DNA of 41,336 nt from a virus. Shown piece after piece: positions 8,395-36,448 of the stretch; positions within the stretch are counted from its first letter, which is position 1; each line of letters opens with the position of its first letter. The stretch covers positions 1 to 41,336 of the IMG/VR virus record IMGVR_UViG_3300044648_000136. One strand, 5' to 3'. A program made the translations under genes and the position numbers. The notes under the pieces are model-generated. The model did no database searches, had not been told where the DNA came from, and saw only the letters and a program-made list of their open reading frames with translations.

Positions 8395-8464
8395 GAGTCA
8401 TTAGCTCAGTGGTAGAGCGTCACCATTCCAGGTGAAGGCGCAGGTTCTATTCCTGCATGGCGAG
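8395..8464 (+). tRNA. Degenerate tRNA-Gly(TCC)-like gene
   Basis: D-arm GCTC-AGTGGTA-GAGC (8404-8418) and T-arm GCAGG-TTCTATT-CCTGC (8440-8456) are canonical. The anticodon stem TCACC/GGTGA encloses a 6-nt loop ATTCCA, one base short, with TCC in the glycine position. The acceptor GAGTCAT/ATGGCGA pairs at five of seven positions, with a tandem G-A/A-G at the end. It may be decayed or a very divergent functional tRNA. Confidence 0.6.
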
Positions 8465-8468
8465 CAAA

Positions 8469-8542
8469 GCCCTAGTAGTTCAGTTTGGCAGAACAGCTGC
8501 CTTGTAAGCAGACGGTCGGTGGTTCGATTCCATCCTGGGGCA
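8469..8542 (+). tRNA. tRNA-Thr(TGT)
   Basis: Acceptor GCCCTAG/CTGGGGC, D-arm GTTC/GAAC, anticodon loop CTTGTAA (TGT), T-arm GGTGG-TTCGATT-CCATC, discriminator A. CCA is not encoded. All arms pair well with a few G-T pairs; one mismatch lies at 27-43. It would read ACA codons. Confidence 0.9.
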
Positions 8543-8544
8543 AT

Positions 8545-8619
8545 TCTGAGGTAGTTCAGCGGCAGAACGGAGGACTGTTAATCCTCATGTCGAAGGTTCG
8601 ATCCCTTCTCTCAGAGCCA
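8545..8619 (+). tRNA. tRNA-Asn(GTT)
   Basis: Acceptor TCTGAGG/TCTCAGA, D-arm GTTC/GAAC, anticodon stem GAGGA/TCCTC with loop CTGTTAA (GTT), T-arm GAAGG-TTCGATC-CCTTC, discriminator G and encoded CCA. It begins two bases after the Thr tRNA. Confidence 0.93.
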
Positions 8620-8621
8620 AT

Positions 8622-8815
8622 GACAATCGCGGCGTTGACAGTGAAACGCAAGTCGCCTGATAAGCGGTAGATAGGTAGCTCAGTCTGGTAGAGCACATGC
8701 TCTGCGGAAAGGGGTAACAATGAAAACTTATCATTTTCATTTGACCAAGTACGGGGCATGATGTCGCTGGTTCAAATCCAGCCCATCATAGCCGGTGCAA
8801 TTCCGGCCGATTGTC
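8622..8815 (+). other. Nested tRNA-like composite (outer half-tRNA around an inner tRNA-like unit)
   Basis: GACAATCG (8622-8629) and CGATTGTC (8808-8815) form a perfect 8-bp acceptor-like stem. Next to them are a D-arm-like hairpin GCGTT/AACGC (8632-8649), an anticodon-arm-like hairpin with loop CTGATAA (8652-8668, GAT) and a T-arm GCCGG-TGCAATT-CCGGC (8791-8807). Where the variable loop should be lies a second tRNA-like unit (8669-8790) with canonical D-arm GCTC-AGTCTGGTA-GAGC and T-arm GCTGG-TTCAAAT-CCAGC. Its anticodon stem CATGC/GCATG is split by a 55-nt loop, and its acceptor ends do not pair well. It is either two recombined, decayed tRNAs or an unusual RNA. Confidence 0.5.
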
Positions 8816-8825
8816 ACCTTATTAT

Positions 8826-8900
8826 TGGGTTATAGTGAAATGGTTATCACACTAGACTTTGACTCTGGTATTTCAGGTTCGAGTCCTGATAGCCCTGCCA
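8826..8900 (+). tRNA. tRNA-Gln(TTG)
   Basis: Acceptor TGGGTTA/TAGCCCT, weak at pair 1-72 as in other Gln tRNAs; D-arm GTGA/TCAC; anticodon stem CTAGA/TCTGG with loop CTTTGAC (TTG); T-arm TCAGG-TTCGAGT-CCTGA; discriminator G and encoded CCA. It would read CAA, which is frequent in the Gln-rich scaffold and portal genes. Confidence 0.92.
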
Positions 8901-8912
8901 GGATTTGAGAAA

Positions 8913-8927
8913 GTGGTTCGATCCCAC
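8913..8927 (+). pseudogene. Orphan tRNA T-arm (tRNA remnant)
   Basis: GTGG-TTCGATC-CCAC is a perfect T-arm with a canonical loop, but no D-arm or anticodon arm lies before it. The preceding 12 bases follow directly on the Gln tRNA. It is probably the 3' remnant of a lost tRNA; a tRNA-derived attachment core is another possibility. Confidence 0.5.
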
Positions 8928-8994
8928 GATGAGCAGCATGACGGGAGTTGTGTGGTGTGTTTCCTGGAGGGAGGATTCTCAATTATTAGCATTT

Positions 8995-9069
8995 AGCGGA
9001 TTAGTTCAGTAGTAGAATGCTAGGTTCATACCCTAGAGGCCAATGGTGCAATTCCATTATCCGCTACCA
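8995..9069 (+). tRNA. tRNA-Met(CAT), elongator or Ile2 type
   Basis: Acceptor AGCGGAT/ATCCGCT is perfectly paired, which argues against initiator fMet. D-arm GTTC/GAAT, anticodon stem CTAGG/CCTAG with loop TTCATAC (CAT), T-arm AATGG-TGCAATT-CCATT, discriminator A and encoded CCA. The unusual T-loop TGCAATT is shared with the composite at 8791-8807. If modified to lysidine it would read AUA. Confidence 0.92.
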
Positions 9070-9073
9070 TTTT

Positions 9074-9175
9074 CGGAGAGACGCACGAATACTGGTGCAC
9101 CAAATTGTTTGCCGTGGATAAAGATATACGCGAGTATCTCCACCTGCTGGATGTAAGCTCCAGCCTCTCCGACCA
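9074..9175 (+). tRNA. Class II tRNA-like element ending in CCA
   Basis: CGGAGAG (9074-9080) pairs perfectly with CTCTCCG (9165-9171), followed by A and an encoded CCA. D-arm GCAC-8 nt-GTGC (9083-9098) and T-arm GCTGG/CCAGC (9146-9164) are present, but the T-loop is nine bases. A long variable arm, GTGGA (9113-9117) to TCCAC (9139-9143) with an inner ATAC-GCGA-GTAT, fits Ser/Leu/Tyr tRNAs. The anticodon arm is not recognisable: CAAA-TTG-TTTG has a 3-nt loop. It ends 13 bases before the next gene start. Confidence 0.5.
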
Positions 9176-9188
9176 CTTTGAGGTCAAC

Positions 9189-9593
9189 ATGTCTGAAATA
9201 TTCGTCTTTGGTAGTAATCTATTAGGAATCCACAAGCGTGGAGCAGCATTAGAAGCGTTACAAAAGCACGGGGCAATCTTAGGCCAAGGTATCGGACTCC
9301 AAGGTAAGTCCTATGCAATACCAACAAAACAATCCCCTTCGCGGTCTCTTGATTTAGTCCAGATTAATAAATTTGTCGCTGATTTTCTTAATTACGCATA
9401 CTACACTCCAGAGCACGTTTACCATGTTACCAAGATTGGATGTGGACTGGCAGGATTTGATCCAATTCAGATTGCACCTATGTTCTCTTTGTGCAAATCG
9501 ATGAACAATGTAAAAGTAACTCAAGACTTTGCAAATATTATCGATCAATTTAATATTTTTCCCGACTTAATAACTACATTTAGTGTAAATTAA
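9189..9593 (+). CDS. Macro-like protein of the A1S_2505 phage family
   Basis: 134 aa from ATG 9189 (GAGG five bases upstream); the in-frame ATG at 9105 lies inside the tRNA-like element and is rejected. The start SEIFVFGSNLLGIHKRGAA is the glycine loop of this phage non-structural family (G-N-x-x-G-x-H-x-x-GAA). It continues with QGIGLQGKSYAIPTK and ends with TKIGCGLAGF, both typical. The fold is macro-domain-like, and such domains bind ADP-ribose or related nucleotides. The activity of this family is not established. A link to the NAD+ genes at 33166-36448 is an inference. Confidence 0.8.
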   Translation: MSEIFVFGSNLLGIHKRGAALEALQKHGAILGQGIGLQGKSYAIPTKQSPSRSLDLVQINKFVADFLNYAYYTPEHVYHVTKIGCGLAGFDPIQIAPMFSLCKSMNNVKVTQDFANIIDQFNIFPDLITTFSVN

Positions 9594-31894: not shown

Positions 31895-32119
31895 ATGACA
31901 ATTCAAGAAGTAGTAGATTATTTTGGTAATCTCAATCAAGCATGTAAGGCTCTAGGAATAGCCTCACAGAATATGACTAAATGGAAGAAGCAAGGTTATA
32001 TTCCCTATAAGCAGCAATTTAGATTAGCCCATATCACAGAAGGCAAATTAATGCCCGATGAGGAAGACCCTCATTTAAACCCGAGAAAAGGAAGTAAAAA
32101 ATGCGAGCGAAAGGAATAG
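31895..32119 (+). CDS. Cro-like DNA-binding protein (second copy)
   Basis: 74 aa; GGAGGACAA site before ATG 31895. HTH region EVVDYFGNLNQACKALGIASQNMTKWKKQGYIPYKQQFRLAHITEGKL, clearly related to the protein at 7153, with a longer basic tail. It probably binds the CTAGGTTTA-type sites next to it. First gene of the operon leading to the NAD+ genes; its end overlaps the next gene by 19 bases. Confidence 0.85.
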   Translation: MTIQEVVDYFGNLNQACKALGIASQNMTKWKKQGYIPYKQQFRLAHITEGKLMPDEEDPHLNPRKGSKKCERKE

Positions 32120-32970
32120 CAGCTATAGGATTACTATGTGCCGTTGGTTTGACGTCATGTGACAGAGTTCCTGCAGGTTATCGGGGAGTAATCGTTAACC
32201 TGTATGGAAGTGAGAAAGGCGTTTCGGAAGAATCCGTTGGTGTTGGCAGGTATTATACCGGATGGAACAGGGAGCTATATTTATTTCCCACGTTCTTACA
32301 AAATTATTCATGGAAAGATGAACAAGCTATTACTATGCAGACCTCAGAAGGTCTTTCAATTCGAACCTCAGCGGGGATTACCTACAAGATTTCACCTGAC
32401 AATGTTGTTAAAGTGTTCCAGAAATATCGTTTAGGCATCGAAGAGATTACCAATACATTCCTACATAACCAAGTTCGTGACGCTATGAATGAAGTAGCGA
32501 GCACCATGACTGTAGAAGCTATCTACGGCTCTGGCAAAGAGAAGTTTATCAGTAAAGTTAATCAGATAGTCAAACAGGAAGCTGCAGATAATGGTATTGA
32601 AGTTGAAAAAATTTACCTCGTGGGTTCTTTCGAGTTACCACCTAATGTCGTTAAATCGATTAATACTAAGATTCAAGCTACTCAGAATGCAATGCGAGTT
32701 GAAAATGAGGTTGCTACAAGTAGAGCGGAAGCTCAGAAGACAATTGTTGATGCAAAAGCAGCTGCGGAACGCAGAGTAATTGAAGCAGAAGCTAACGCTA
32801 AGCAAATAACTCTTAATGCAGAATCTCAAGCTAAGGCAAACACAATTCTGGCTCAGAGCCTTACTCCAGAATTCGTTCAATATCAAGCCATATTAAAATG
32901 GAATGGCGAGTTACCCAAAACAAATGCTACCGGAGCAATACCTTTTCTTAACATAGGAGAGCAGGGATGA
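32101..32970 (+). CDS. SPFH/prohibitin-like lipoprotein
   Basis: 289 aa. The signal peptide ends in the lipobox LTSC (Cys20); Asp at +2 is the signal for staying in the inner membrane. The SPFH/band-7 domain follows: VPAGYRGVIVNLYG, TSEGLSIRTSAGITYKISPDNV, TNTFLHNQVRDAMNEVASTMT, GIEVEKIYLVGSFELPPNVVKSI. Then comes the long Ala/Glu/Lys coiled coil (ATSRAEAQKTIVDAKAAAER). Such proteins form membrane rings, like HflK/C and prohibitins, that control proteases. In a phage it may protect phage or host membrane proteins or block entry of other phages. The start overlaps the Cro gene; AAGGAAG lies upstream. Confidence 0.88.
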   Translation: MRAKGIAAIGLLCAVGLTSCDRVPAGYRGVIVNLYGSEKGVSEESVGVGRYYTGWNRELYLFPTFLQNYSWKDEQAITMQTSEGLSIRTSAGITYKISPDNVVKVFQKYRLGIEEITNTFLHNQVRDAMNEVASTMTVEAIYGSGKEKFISKVNQIVKQEAADNGIEVEKIYLVGSFELPPNVVKSINTKIQATQNAMRVENEVATSRAEAQKTIVDAKAAAERRVIEAEANAKQITLNAESQAKANTILAQSLTPEFVQYQAILKWNGELPKTNATGAIPFLNIGEQG

Positions 32971-33194
32971 GATGGATTCTATTTAAAGTTATTTGTTTTC
33001 TAGCTGTATTTATTTTCATGCAAGGTGCAATTTTACCCTGGGCGATTTCAAATAATCTTATGCCATTATGGGCTGACATCGCTTTAATTACTGTGATTCT
33101 CATGATGTGGCTGGCTGCAATTGATCGGATCGCATTCCACTTTCTAAAAATGTTAAGGAAGAATAATGCTATTACTGAACAATCTACCGATTAA
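32967..33194 (+). CDS. Two-helix membrane protein
   Basis: 75 aa; starts in an ATGA overlap with the SPFH gene. Transmembrane segments at about 4-26 (ILFKVICFLAVFIFMQGAIL) and 34-55 (LWADIALITVILMMWLAAI), then a basic and polar tail. It probably works with the SPFH protein. A holin role is possible by topology, but it lies outside the lysis region. Overlaps the next gene by 29 bases. Confidence 0.65.
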   Translation: MRWILFKVICFLAVFIFMQGAILPWAISNNLMPLWADIALITVILMMWLAAIDRIAFHFLKMLRKNNAITEQSTD

Positions 33195-34020
33195 ATACTT
33201 CACATTCCCAGGCGGTGAGCTGCAAGTTAAGTTGCCACCAGTAGTCATTACAGAACGCGTTGTGCTTACATGGAAGCCTACTACATCAGACCACGTAATG
33301 CTATTAGGACTAACAGTTAATGCCTTAAGGAAGGAAGGAATTTATGATATTGACCTGGATATCTTGTATTTGCCTTACGCACGTCAGGACAGAGTTTGCT
33401 CTCCAGGTGAAGCTAATAGCCTTGAGGTGATATGCGACTTTCTGGATAAACTCGATGTAAGTACTATCCGTCTATGGGACCCCCATAATCAAGAAGTGAC
33501 TAATGAACTTTTACCTCATAACTATGTCTGGACATGGGATGCTCATGACATATTCGCGCGATACAATATTCTTAAAAGCTTTGACCTATACGATTTGGTA
33601 ATTTGTTCACCTGATGATGGCGCAAGAGGGCGTGTTGATAAACTTGTTGAACATTTTGACCTACAGAAACCTGTGTATTTAGAGAAGAATCGAAATCCTG
33701 ATAATGGACACATTATTGGTATGCATTTTGACCCGCACAATCGTTCGGTAAATGGCTATAACGTCATGGTGGTTGACGACATTTGTGATGGTGGTGCTAC
33801 ATTCCTTATGGCTGCTGATACGCTTAAATCTCACGGTGCAGAAGAGCTATATCTCTATGTAACCCATGGCATATTCAGTAAAGGGTTAGATGAATTGAGC
33901 AAGTGGTATAAGCACATTTACTGTCACCATGTACTGGATGATAACCGCTGGTCTAATGACAATCGATTAACCATTTTAAGGGGCTTCTCGCATGTATCAC
34001 AACCCACTATTTGCTATTGA
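33166..34020 (+). CDS. Ribose-phosphate pyrophosphokinase homologue, probable Adps of a NARP1 pathway
   Basis: 284 aa; AAGGAA before ATG 33166. PRPP-synthetase features: LDILYLPYARQDRVCSPGEANS (the ARQDR ATP-site motif), IRLWDPHN, DLVICSPDDGARGR, and the PRPP loop VMVVDDICDGGATF. It is shorter than host Prs (about 315 aa). Homologues paired with NAMPT-like enzymes in phages use ADP-ribose plus ATP to make ADP-ribose pyrophosphate (Adps). Ordinary PRPP synthesis is the alternative, and sequence alone does not decide. Its end overlaps the NAMPT-like gene by 29 bases, so the two are translated together. Confidence 0.85.
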   Translation: MLLLNNLPIKYFTFPGGELQVKLPPVVITERVVLTWKPTTSDHVMLLGLTVNALRKEGIYDIDLDILYLPYARQDRVCSPGEANSLEVICDFLDKLDVSTIRLWDPHNQEVTNELLPHNYVWTWDAHDIFARYNILKSFDLYDLVICSPDDGARGRVDKLVEHFDLQKPVYLEKNRNPDNGHIIGMHFDPHNRSVNGYNVMVVDDICDGGATFLMAADTLKSHGAEELYLYVTHGIFSKGLDELSKWYKHIYCHHVLDDNRWSNDNRLTILRGFSHVSQPTICY

Positions 34021-36448
34021 TTTCTACAAGGTTGACCATAGACGGCAGTATCCTGAAGGTACTACACAAATTTACTCAAATCTCACTCCACGTTATGTTA
34101 AACACTGTCATAGCCTATTGCCAGATTACGATAATCAAGTAGTGGTGTTTGGGATTCAGGCATTTATTCAAGAAGTATTAATCGAACAATGGCAATATGG
34201 ATTCTTCGACCGACCCCGATTTCAAGTATTACGCGAATATCAAGATATGATGTATTCAGCTCTAGGTCTTGAATGCTTTGACTGTAGCCATATTGCAGCA
34301 TTGCATGACTTAGGTTATTTACCCATTAAGATTAAGGCTATAAATGAAGGCTTCCGAGTACCTATTGGCGTTCCTGTGCTTACCATTGTTAATACTCATC
34401 CTGATTTCTTTTGGCTTACTAATTACCTTGAAACGGTGCTTTCGGCGAGTCTTTGGAAATCAATGACAACGGCGACTATAGCATTTGAGATGAAGCGATT
34501 ACTAACCCGGTATACAAGAAAGACGGGAGCGGATGAAAGCTTCATACCCTACCAAGCTCATGATTTTAGCTTTAGAGGAATGTCAGGATTACAGGATGCC
34601 GCAATGTCTGGCGCAGGTCACTTAACCTCATTTATAGGCACAGATTGCGTTCCTGCTATTGAGATAATGAATGAATTTTATGATGGAAGAAATACTGTTC
34701 CTCTAGTAGGATCAAGCGTTCCAGCGACAGAACATAGTGTCATGACATGTTCGGGAGTTGATGGCGAGTTCGATACAATTAGACGCCTAATCACCGAAGT
34801 TTATCCAGATGGGATAGTTTCTATCGTTGCTGATTCATTTAACTTATGGCAAGTACTGACTGTGTACTTACCAAGCCTTTATAAGGAAATTCATGATAGA
34901 CAAGGGAAGGTTGTTATTAGGCCTGACTGCTATAGTGAGGACACATCAATTTTCACTCCAAATGGGTGGCGATTATTTAAAGATTTAAGTGATGACGATT
35001 TAGTTGCTCAAGTTAATGAAGACGGAACGTATAACTTTGTTAGTCCTTTGAAATTAGTTTCGTATGAATATGAAGGAATAATGCATCATTTTCATGACCA
35101 TCACGGAAAAATTGATTTACTAGTCACCCCAAATCACCGCATGATTTATAAGAAATTTGGCAAGTGGATTGTTGAATACGCCTCAGAATCAACTGCTTAT
35201 TTTGAAAAGAATATAGTGAGGAGTGCAAGAGCAGTAAGTAAAGGAGAGAATTTAACATGGCTTCATAGGCTTTTAATAGCCTTTCAAGCTGATGGAAGCT
35301 TTCCTTCAAAAATACCTTTAAACCAAGGAATGATTACAGGATTGCAATGCATACGGTTTAATTTTTCTAAACAACGTAAAATAGATAGATTGATTGCTAT
35401 ATGTGAGCAGGGATTATTTAAATACAAAGTGAGCTCTGAAAATGCTAGACCAGGACAAAAAACAATATATGTCTGGGTTGATAAGAATATATTTATATCG
35501 AAAACATTAGACTGGTTTGATTGTTCTGATTTATGTGGCGATTGGTGTTCTCAATTCATTGAGGAGATGTCACATTGGGATTCCAGTATAAGAAATTTGG
35601 GGCGCATTAAATTTGACACCTGCAACAAAGAAACTATAGAAGCTGTTGAGATTATAGCTTTATCAGCAGGGTATGGATGTTTAATTTCTGTTAGAGAAGA
35701 CAATAGAAAGCCAGAATATAACGATGTTTATACTGCTCATATTACGATTAATAATGAGGCAGGTGGTCAATCTATTCAACATAGCGAGAAGCCATATAAT
35801 GGAAAAGTATATTGTGTCCAAGTTCCTTCAGGCAAATTATTGGTTAAGAGAAACCGGAGCGTGGCCGTTTGCGGTAATTCTGGTGATCCTGCTAGCATCA
35901 TATGTGGTGATTTGCTCGAAATTCCTGGCAGTCCAGCCCACAAGGGAGCTTTGCAGTGCTTATGGGAAACTTTCGGTGGACGAATCAACTCATCAGGATA
36001 CAAAGAACTTCACAGTAAGGTGGGATTGATTTATGGGGATGCAATCACGGTTGAACGAGCTCAGCTGATTTTATCCTTGATGGAAGAAAAAGGTTTTGCT
36101 TCAACTAACATAATTTTCGGTATGGGTAGTTATACATATCAGTATGTTACAAGAGATACTTTTGGCTTTGCGGTCAAGGCTACAAGTGCGGTGATTAATG
36201 GTGAACGGAAAGCAATATTTAAAGACCCAATCACAGCAGATGGCAGTAAGAAGTCGGCAAAAGGTCTATTAATGGTTGATTTGGACAATGAAACAGGACG
36301 ATTCTATTTGACTGATAATGTATCAGAAAGCACTGAATGTGATGGTTATTTGCAAACTGTATATTGTGATGGAAAGTTAATCAAGGAAACAAATTTAAGT
36401 GATATTAGGAAGAATTTAGTTGTTGAATTAGAAAATTTTTCGGAGTAA
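33992..36448 (+). CDS. NAMPT-family enzyme (probable Namat) interrupted by an intein
   Basis: 818 aa precursor. The N-extein (1-312) has FYKVDHRRQYPEG (Tyr12 matches Tyr18 of human NAMPT), AHDFSFRGMSG (Asp219 site) and PATEHSVM (His247 site), and ends VVIRPD (Arg311/Asp313 sites). Residues 313-629 are an intein. The C-extein starts SGDP and continues LIYGDAI (Asp354 site) and AIFKDPITADGSKKSAKG. Splicing gives 501 aa, the NAMPT family size. In NARP1 this enzyme joins ADP-ribose pyrophosphate to nicotinamide to give NAD+; NMN from PRPP is the alternative. It ends before a hairpin at 36463. Confidence 0.9.
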   Translation: MYHNPLFAIDFYKVDHRRQYPEGTTQIYSNLTPRYVKHCHSLLPDYDNQVVVFGIQAFIQEVLIEQWQYGFFDRPRFQVLREYQDMMYSALGLECFDCSHIAALHDLGYLPIKIKAINEGFRVPIGVPVLTIVNTHPDFFWLTNYLETVLSASLWKSMTTATIAFEMKRLLTRYTRKTGADESFIPYQAHDFSFRGMSGLQDAAMSGAGHLTSFIGTDCVPAIEIMNEFYDGRNTVPLVGSSVPATEHSVMTCSGVDGEFDTIRRLITEVYPDGIVSIVADSFNLWQVLTVYLPSLYKEIHDRQGKVVIRPDCYSEDTSIFTPNGWRLFKDLSDDDLVAQVNEDGTYNFVSPLKLVSYEYEGIMHHFHDHHGKIDLLVTPNHRMIYKKFGKWIVEYASESTAYFEKNIVRSARAVSKGENLTWLHRLLIAFQADGSFPSKIPLNQGMITGLQCIRFNFSKQRKIDRLIAICEQGLFKYKVSSENARPGQKTIYVWVDKNIFISKTLDWFDCSDLCGDWCSQFIEEMSHWDSSIRNLGRIKFDTCNKETIEAVEIIALSAGYGCLISVREDNRKPEYNDVYTAHITINNEAGGQSIQHSEKPYNGKVYCVQVPSGKLLVKRNRSVAVCGNSGDPASIICGDLLEIPGSPAHKGALQCLWETFGGRINSSGYKELHSKVGLIYGDAITVERAQLILSLMEEKGFASTNIIFGMGSYTYQYVTRDTFGFAVKATSAVINGERKAIFKDPITADGSKKSAKGLLMVDLDNETGRFYLTDNVSESTECDGYLQTVYCDGKLIKETNLSDIRKNLVVELENFSE
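34928..35878 (+). mobile_element. Intein with LAGLIDADG-type endonuclease remnants, inside the NAMPT-like gene
   Basis: 317 aa. Block A begins CYSEDTSIFTPNGWRLF (Cys1). Block B is VTPNH (T-x-x-H). The C-terminal block F is KVYCVQVPSGKLLVKRNRSVAV, and the junction CGN is followed by Ser+1. The penultimate residue is Gly rather than His, as in some phage inteins. Endonuclease-like motifs are LLIAFQADGSF and a weaker IEAVEIIALSAGYG. It interrupts the catalytic RPD/SGD motif, so the enzyme is inactive until splicing. Confidence 0.9.

Follow-up and report, generated by a model that had tools for sequence, protein, structure and literature searches.

The described system closest to the locus reported here is NARP1 of Bacillus phage SPbetaL1 (9w5x/9w5w; PMC12774641), and both the NARP1 definitions and the NAD+ contacts used in this study were taken from that work. 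SPbetaL1 and bacterial NARP1 protect cells from NAD+-depleting systems. In SPbetaL1 Namat, Arg306 and Asp308 contact the NMN ribose, and an Arg306Ala change lowers NAD+ synthesis by a factor of about 11 and leaves cells unprotected; the same enzyme also makes NMN from PRPP in vitro (PMC12774641). Phage enzymes with an intein at an active-site motif have been described as well (PMC5050341). An intein of a mycobacteriophage recombination directionality factor (RDF) with a penultimate Gly splices well, and changing this Gly to His slows splicing (PMC5050341).

In this study, we examined the IMG/VR virus record IMGVR_UViG_3300044648_000136 (41,336 bp; "the window" refers to this whole stretch). 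The locus probably is a NARP1 cassette of a P22-like temperate phage in which Namat is interrupted by an intein and the precursor would be inactive until spliced. It resembles SPbetaL1 NARP1 in gene order, Adps clade, clamp motif and nearly complete NAD+ contacts, but the two Namats are only about 50% identical, SPbetaL1 belongs to another phage type, and its Namat has no intein.

The adps-namat pair and its operon

The genes adps and namat overlap by 29 nt and form the 3' end of a Cro-proximal operon of five genes that overlap head to tail, with replication genes downstream:

31895-32119, + strand: P22 Cro-like regulator, first gene of the operon (Pfam P22_Cro, E = 6e-10), with a 19-nt overlap with the next gene
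32101-32970, + strand: SPFH/Band 7 lipoprotein-like gene (Pfam Band_7, E = 2.5e-27; phrog_200, E = 6e-75)
32967-33194, + strand: small putative membrane protein, conserved in sister phages
33166-34020, + strand: predicted Adps (ADP-ribose pyrophosphate synthetase), a Prs homologue of 284 amino acids in the Adps clade (TIGR01251, E = 1.7e-36; phrog_619, E = 1.2e-69)
33992-36448, + strand: NAMPT-like open reading frame of 818 amino acids, predicted Namat (NF006629, E = 2.4e-160; phrog_448, E = 3.1e-119)

The initial annotation had described a PRPP-synthetase homologue with ARQDR and VVDDICDGGAT motifs overlapping a NAMPT homologue in a P22-type temperate phage, and both genes were found as described. 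A P22-like portal, a terminase, an integrase and an invertase are also present in the window; together with the P22_Cro-like regulator, the portal, integrase and invertase fit the proposed phage type. A CI-type repressor was not identified in the window.

Based on the known pathway, Adps would convert ADP-ribose and ATP to ADPR-pyrophosphate, and Namat would join this product to nicotinamide, yielding NAD+ and undoing NADase-type defences. It is conceivable, if unlikely, that a genuine NARP1 here chiefly provides NAD+ for lytic growth instead of acting in counter-defence. The early position in the operon, upstream of the replication genes, would suit such a role, and any burst needs NAD+; however, the substrate ADPR is mainly an NADase product, and the protection conferred by the characterized NARP1 systems also speaks for counter-defence.

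A gene for an SPFH/Band 7 protein lies near NARP1 in 20 of the 80 Namat-bearing viral loci, on the same strand every time, with many of these loci being related (window 32101-32970; L063-L064, L067, L071, L074-L082, L084, L089 and L116:4791-5636). On a Vagococcus plasmid, such a gene is found directly 3' of namat. We know of no functional link between SPFH/Band 7 proteins and NARP1. Elsewhere in the window, a cluster of five tRNA genes at 8395-9069 precedes the terminase gene; one of the five has no clear anticodon. Between the cluster and the terminase gene, positions 9105-9590 encode a conserved phage protein of unknown function (phrog_2072, E = 9e-38) that appears somewhat macrodomain-like by eye and has no Pfam match.

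Phylogeny of Adps and the adenine clamp of Namat

A tree of 53 sequences separated 38 Adps-like proteins, among them the window protein and the assayed Adps of SPbetaL1, from 15 Prs proteins of E. coli, Bacillota and archaea by a long branch with 100/100 support. The comparison with housekeeping Prs called for in the initial annotation thus places the window protein with SPbetaL1 Adps. Adps-like proteins share K.RN..TG and DDICDGG.TF-type motifs, the latter in place of DDMIDTGGT in Prs. Among 80 related viral loci, 55 have an Adps-like match no more than 400 nt upstream of Namat. Two Acinetobacter loci (L004/L113) combine an Adps-like gene with a Namat carrying the clamp motif GSFTYNYLTRD and possibly represent a chromosomal NARP1; L004 also harbors a gene for a bifunctional NMN adenylyltransferase/ADP-ribose pyrophosphatase.

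The NAMPT similarity of the 818-amino-acid frame is carried by two segments flanking the insert:

33992-34927, + strand: Namat N-extein, 312 amino acids ending in VVIRPD (NF006629), with nicotinamide-contacting residues kept
35879-36448, + strand: Namat C-extein, 189 amino acids starting with SGDP, of which Ser is the +1 residue (PF04095; phrog_448, E = 1e-63)
36125-36157, + strand: selectivity-clamp helix motif GSYTYQYVTRD, fitting the consensus GSXPhiXPhiXPhiTRD (PMC12774641)

Residue comparison agrees with the earlier observation that Tyr, Asp, His, Arg and Asp of the NAMPT active site are kept. All 13 NAM/NMN contacts are identical between the window and SPbetaL1 Namats, as are five of the seven AMP/adenine contacts. 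The remaining two are conservative: Phe392 of SPbetaL1 corresponds to Tyr, and Arg40 to Lys followed by His in the clamp loop sequence TPRYVKH, where the His may take the stacking position. Replacement of Arg40 by Lys or Tyr followed by a stacking residue has been described for other Namats (PMC12774641). The clamp helix has aromatic residues at motif positions 3 and 7. In contrast, the clamp is absent from two PRPP-type controls, Haemophilus ducreyi NadV (E40, Q392, R396) and Cupriavidus Nampt (A392, Q396, N398).

The corresponding tree of known Namat and NAMPT proteins, also suggested at the outset, was built as well, but it did not separate the two activities, as H. ducreyi NadV falls among the Namats although it lacks the clamp. 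The NAMPT tree alone was therefore rejected as an arbiter of activity, and use of ADPR-pyrophosphate was assigned from the clamp and the partner gene. Together, the Adps clade, the clamp motif and the near-complete set of NAD+-contacting residues, all of them tests at the sequence level, support the NARP1 assignment of the initial annotation.

An ordinary Prs and Nampt pair, making PRPP and NMN and thereby supplementing host NAD+ salvage, would share the folds and the catalytic core. Since SPbetaL1 Namat retains some PRPP activity in vitro (PMC12774641), the residues leave room for PRPP use by the window Namat. Nevertheless, the long, fully supported branch between Adps and Prs, the ribose-5-phosphate loop DDICDGGAT in place of DDMIDTGGT and the adenine clamp, missing in both controls, disfavor this explanation, and no NMN adenylyltransferase was noticed among the neighboring genes. 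We therefore regard an ordinary salvage pair as improbable and retain the NARP1 reading.

An intein at the Namat active site

Similarity to NAMPT ends at VVIRPD (residue 312) and restarts at SGDP (residue 630). What the initial annotation had missed is that 317 of the 818 residues, between D312 and S630, constitute an intein. Its features are as follows:

34928-35878, + strand: intein of 317 amino acids with HINT splicing domain and LAGLIDADG endonuclease, identified as the exact extra segment relative to intein-free sisters, by fold and by profile match
34928-34930, + strand: Cys1, predicted splicing nucleophile, invariant in 34 inteins
35126-35137, + strand: block B, TPNH, invariant in alignment A1; in 34 inteins, H70 is invariant and T67 at least 90% conserved
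35276-35299, + strand: first LAGLIDADG-like motif, IAFQADGS, with Asp122 (invariant in 34 inteins)
35555-35584, + strand: second LAGLIDADG-like motif, FIEEMSHWDS, with Asp218 (W217/D218 invariant in 34 inteins)
35807-35878, + strand: blocks F/G, VYCVQVPSGKLLVKRNRSVAVCGN, with penultimate Gly and terminal Asn (G316/N317 invariant in 34 inteins)

No Pfam or NCBIfam model matched the 317-amino-acid segment above cut-off, and there was no match to a curated family. An AlphaFold model of the intein, calculated from a 34-row alignment, reached a pLDDT of 93.1 and a pTM of 0.90, and its best Foldseek matches in the PDB were the TliVMA intein, PI-SceI and PI-PfuI (E down to 1.7e-14), which share the combined HINT and LAGLIDADG fold. 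A model of the whole precursor was middling (pLDDT 74, 8 rows) and was left out of the evidence. In addition, a profile of six intein sequences matched the AceL NrdHF intein (6zgq; E = 1e-7), which has the same HINT fold but is a split class 3 intein, whereas the intein studied here has Cys1. All four of these inteins reside in other host proteins and show low sequence identity. As judged from motifs and predicted fold, the insert is a class 1-like LAGLIDADG intein in which Gly replaces the penultimate His. The mycobacteriophage RDF intein likewise is a phage intein that ends in Gly-Asn and sits at a conserved motif; it differs in its host protein and in that its splicing has been shown, while that of the window intein is read from motifs.

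Arg310 and Asp312, directly before the intein, correspond to Arg306 and Asp308 of SPbetaL1. Because the intein directly adjoins these presumed NMN-ribose contacts, the unspliced precursor is expected to be inactive. Namat would accordingly be produced as an 818-amino-acid precursor with the intein lodged between the active-site sequence Arg310-Pro-Asp312 and Ser630. Autocatalytic excision involving Cys1, the terminal Asn and Ser+1 would then rejoin VIRPD and SGDP to give an enzyme of 501 amino acids. The penultimate Gly is no objection to splicing, given the efficient splicing of the RDF intein with the same end. That splicing has been lost, leaving a dead Namat in a decaying cassette, might be suspected from this Gly and from the probably recent arrival of an intein absent from the fetched close sisters with a readable site, but it is very unlikely in view of the single open 818-amino-acid frame, the intact Cys1, TPNH, terminal Asn and Ser+1, the Gly-Asn end invariant in 34 relatives and the slowing of the RDF intein by a change to His (PMC5050341).

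Distribution of the intein and implications

The namat site is uninterrupted in sister phages with the same operon, namely, L006 and the IMG/VR loci L015-L028. L006 (DAIEHY010000003.1; 41033 bp) is a close relative that has the complete operon but no intein in its Namat, and its exteins are 74% and 69% identical to those of the window Namat. It was binned in a Desulfosporosinus metagenome-assembled genome (MAG); as Namat was absent from all 298 other genomes sampled from that phylum, misbinning is possible and the host link is uncertain. None of the fetched close sisters with a readable site has the intein, so that it probably arrived recently in the window phage.

Inteins at the identical site, RPD/SGDP (the slash marks the insertion point), occur in Namats of Staphylococcus phages Clo6 and Stab20 and Citrobacter phage Tr1 and are 48 to 49% identical to the window intein; further Staphylococcus records match equally well at the search level. 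Clo6, Stab20 and Tr1 also have an adjacent Adps-like gene but are large phages of other families with genomes of 144 to 154 kb. The RPD site is further occupied in metagenomic Namat-type loci with a clamp-like motif and Adps (L128, L129, L131, L132) and in Nampt-type loci lacking both (L123-L127, L135). A third NAMPT-like family (L120/L121) carries the intein closest to that of the window (55% identity). A related intein interrupts the Walker A motif of a DnaB-like ATPase at ARPD/CGKT (L136:3501-4436 and L140:3501-4439), which matches the RPD target; this is an apparent jump between unrelated proteins. The metagenomic relatives were found by an alignment-based search; a search of IMG/VR with the intein sequence alone gave no matches.

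Inteins at RPD sites form one group in the intein tree (87/84), where the sister of the window intein is that of L120 (88/85) and not any of the other Namat inteins. Site occupancy changes at least eight times on the NAMPT/Namat extein tree. A second insertion site, PA/TEHS or PA/SEHS, adjoins the catalytic His in Staphylococcus phage O1-102 (L099), L137 and L139. The O1-102 intein had been considered for the RPD/SGDP site, but inspection placed it at SIPA/TEHS. Between O1-102 and Clo6, the exteins are 98% identical and the inteins, at different sites, 41%. From these comparisons, the distribution reads as the signature of horizontal, homing-type spread, and the LAGLIDADG endonuclease probably carries the intein into uninterrupted namat or nampt genes.

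For the Arg just upstream of the insertion point (window 34919-34921), the codon AGR is used at 21 of 23 occupied versus 11 of 95 empty sites (Fisher p = 3e-13). When relatedness is allowed for, about five of seven independent pairs follow this pattern and none runs against it (median p 0.06), which makes the association with occupancy only suggestive. It could reflect a target preference of the endonuclease or co-conversion of flanking DNA.

NARP1 itself is known, though its description is recent; what appears to be new is the intein within Namat, for which no report was found in the open-access literature, although one may exist elsewhere. Intein-bearing namat genes in GenBank are annotated plainly as nicotinamide phosphoribosyltransferase, and pipelines for annotation or searching will misread genes of this kind, as the intein falls below the Pfam and NCBIfam cut-offs. 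The occurrence of one intein lineage at RPD sites of three NAMPT-type families and a DnaB-like helicase documents movement between unrelated proteins. It is very doubtful that the intein is also a post-translational switch that, by splitting the Namat active site, holds NARP1 inactive in the lysogen and releases it when the defence fires, through splicing responsive to infection or to NAD+/redox collapse; if it were, the repeated insertion at two positions in the Namat/Nampt active site would reflect selected use and not homing alone. With an intein in the Namat active site, production of the anti-defence enzyme would depend on protein splicing, and the intein-bearing Namat offers a ready way to ask by genetics whether phage counter-defence can be gated by inteins.
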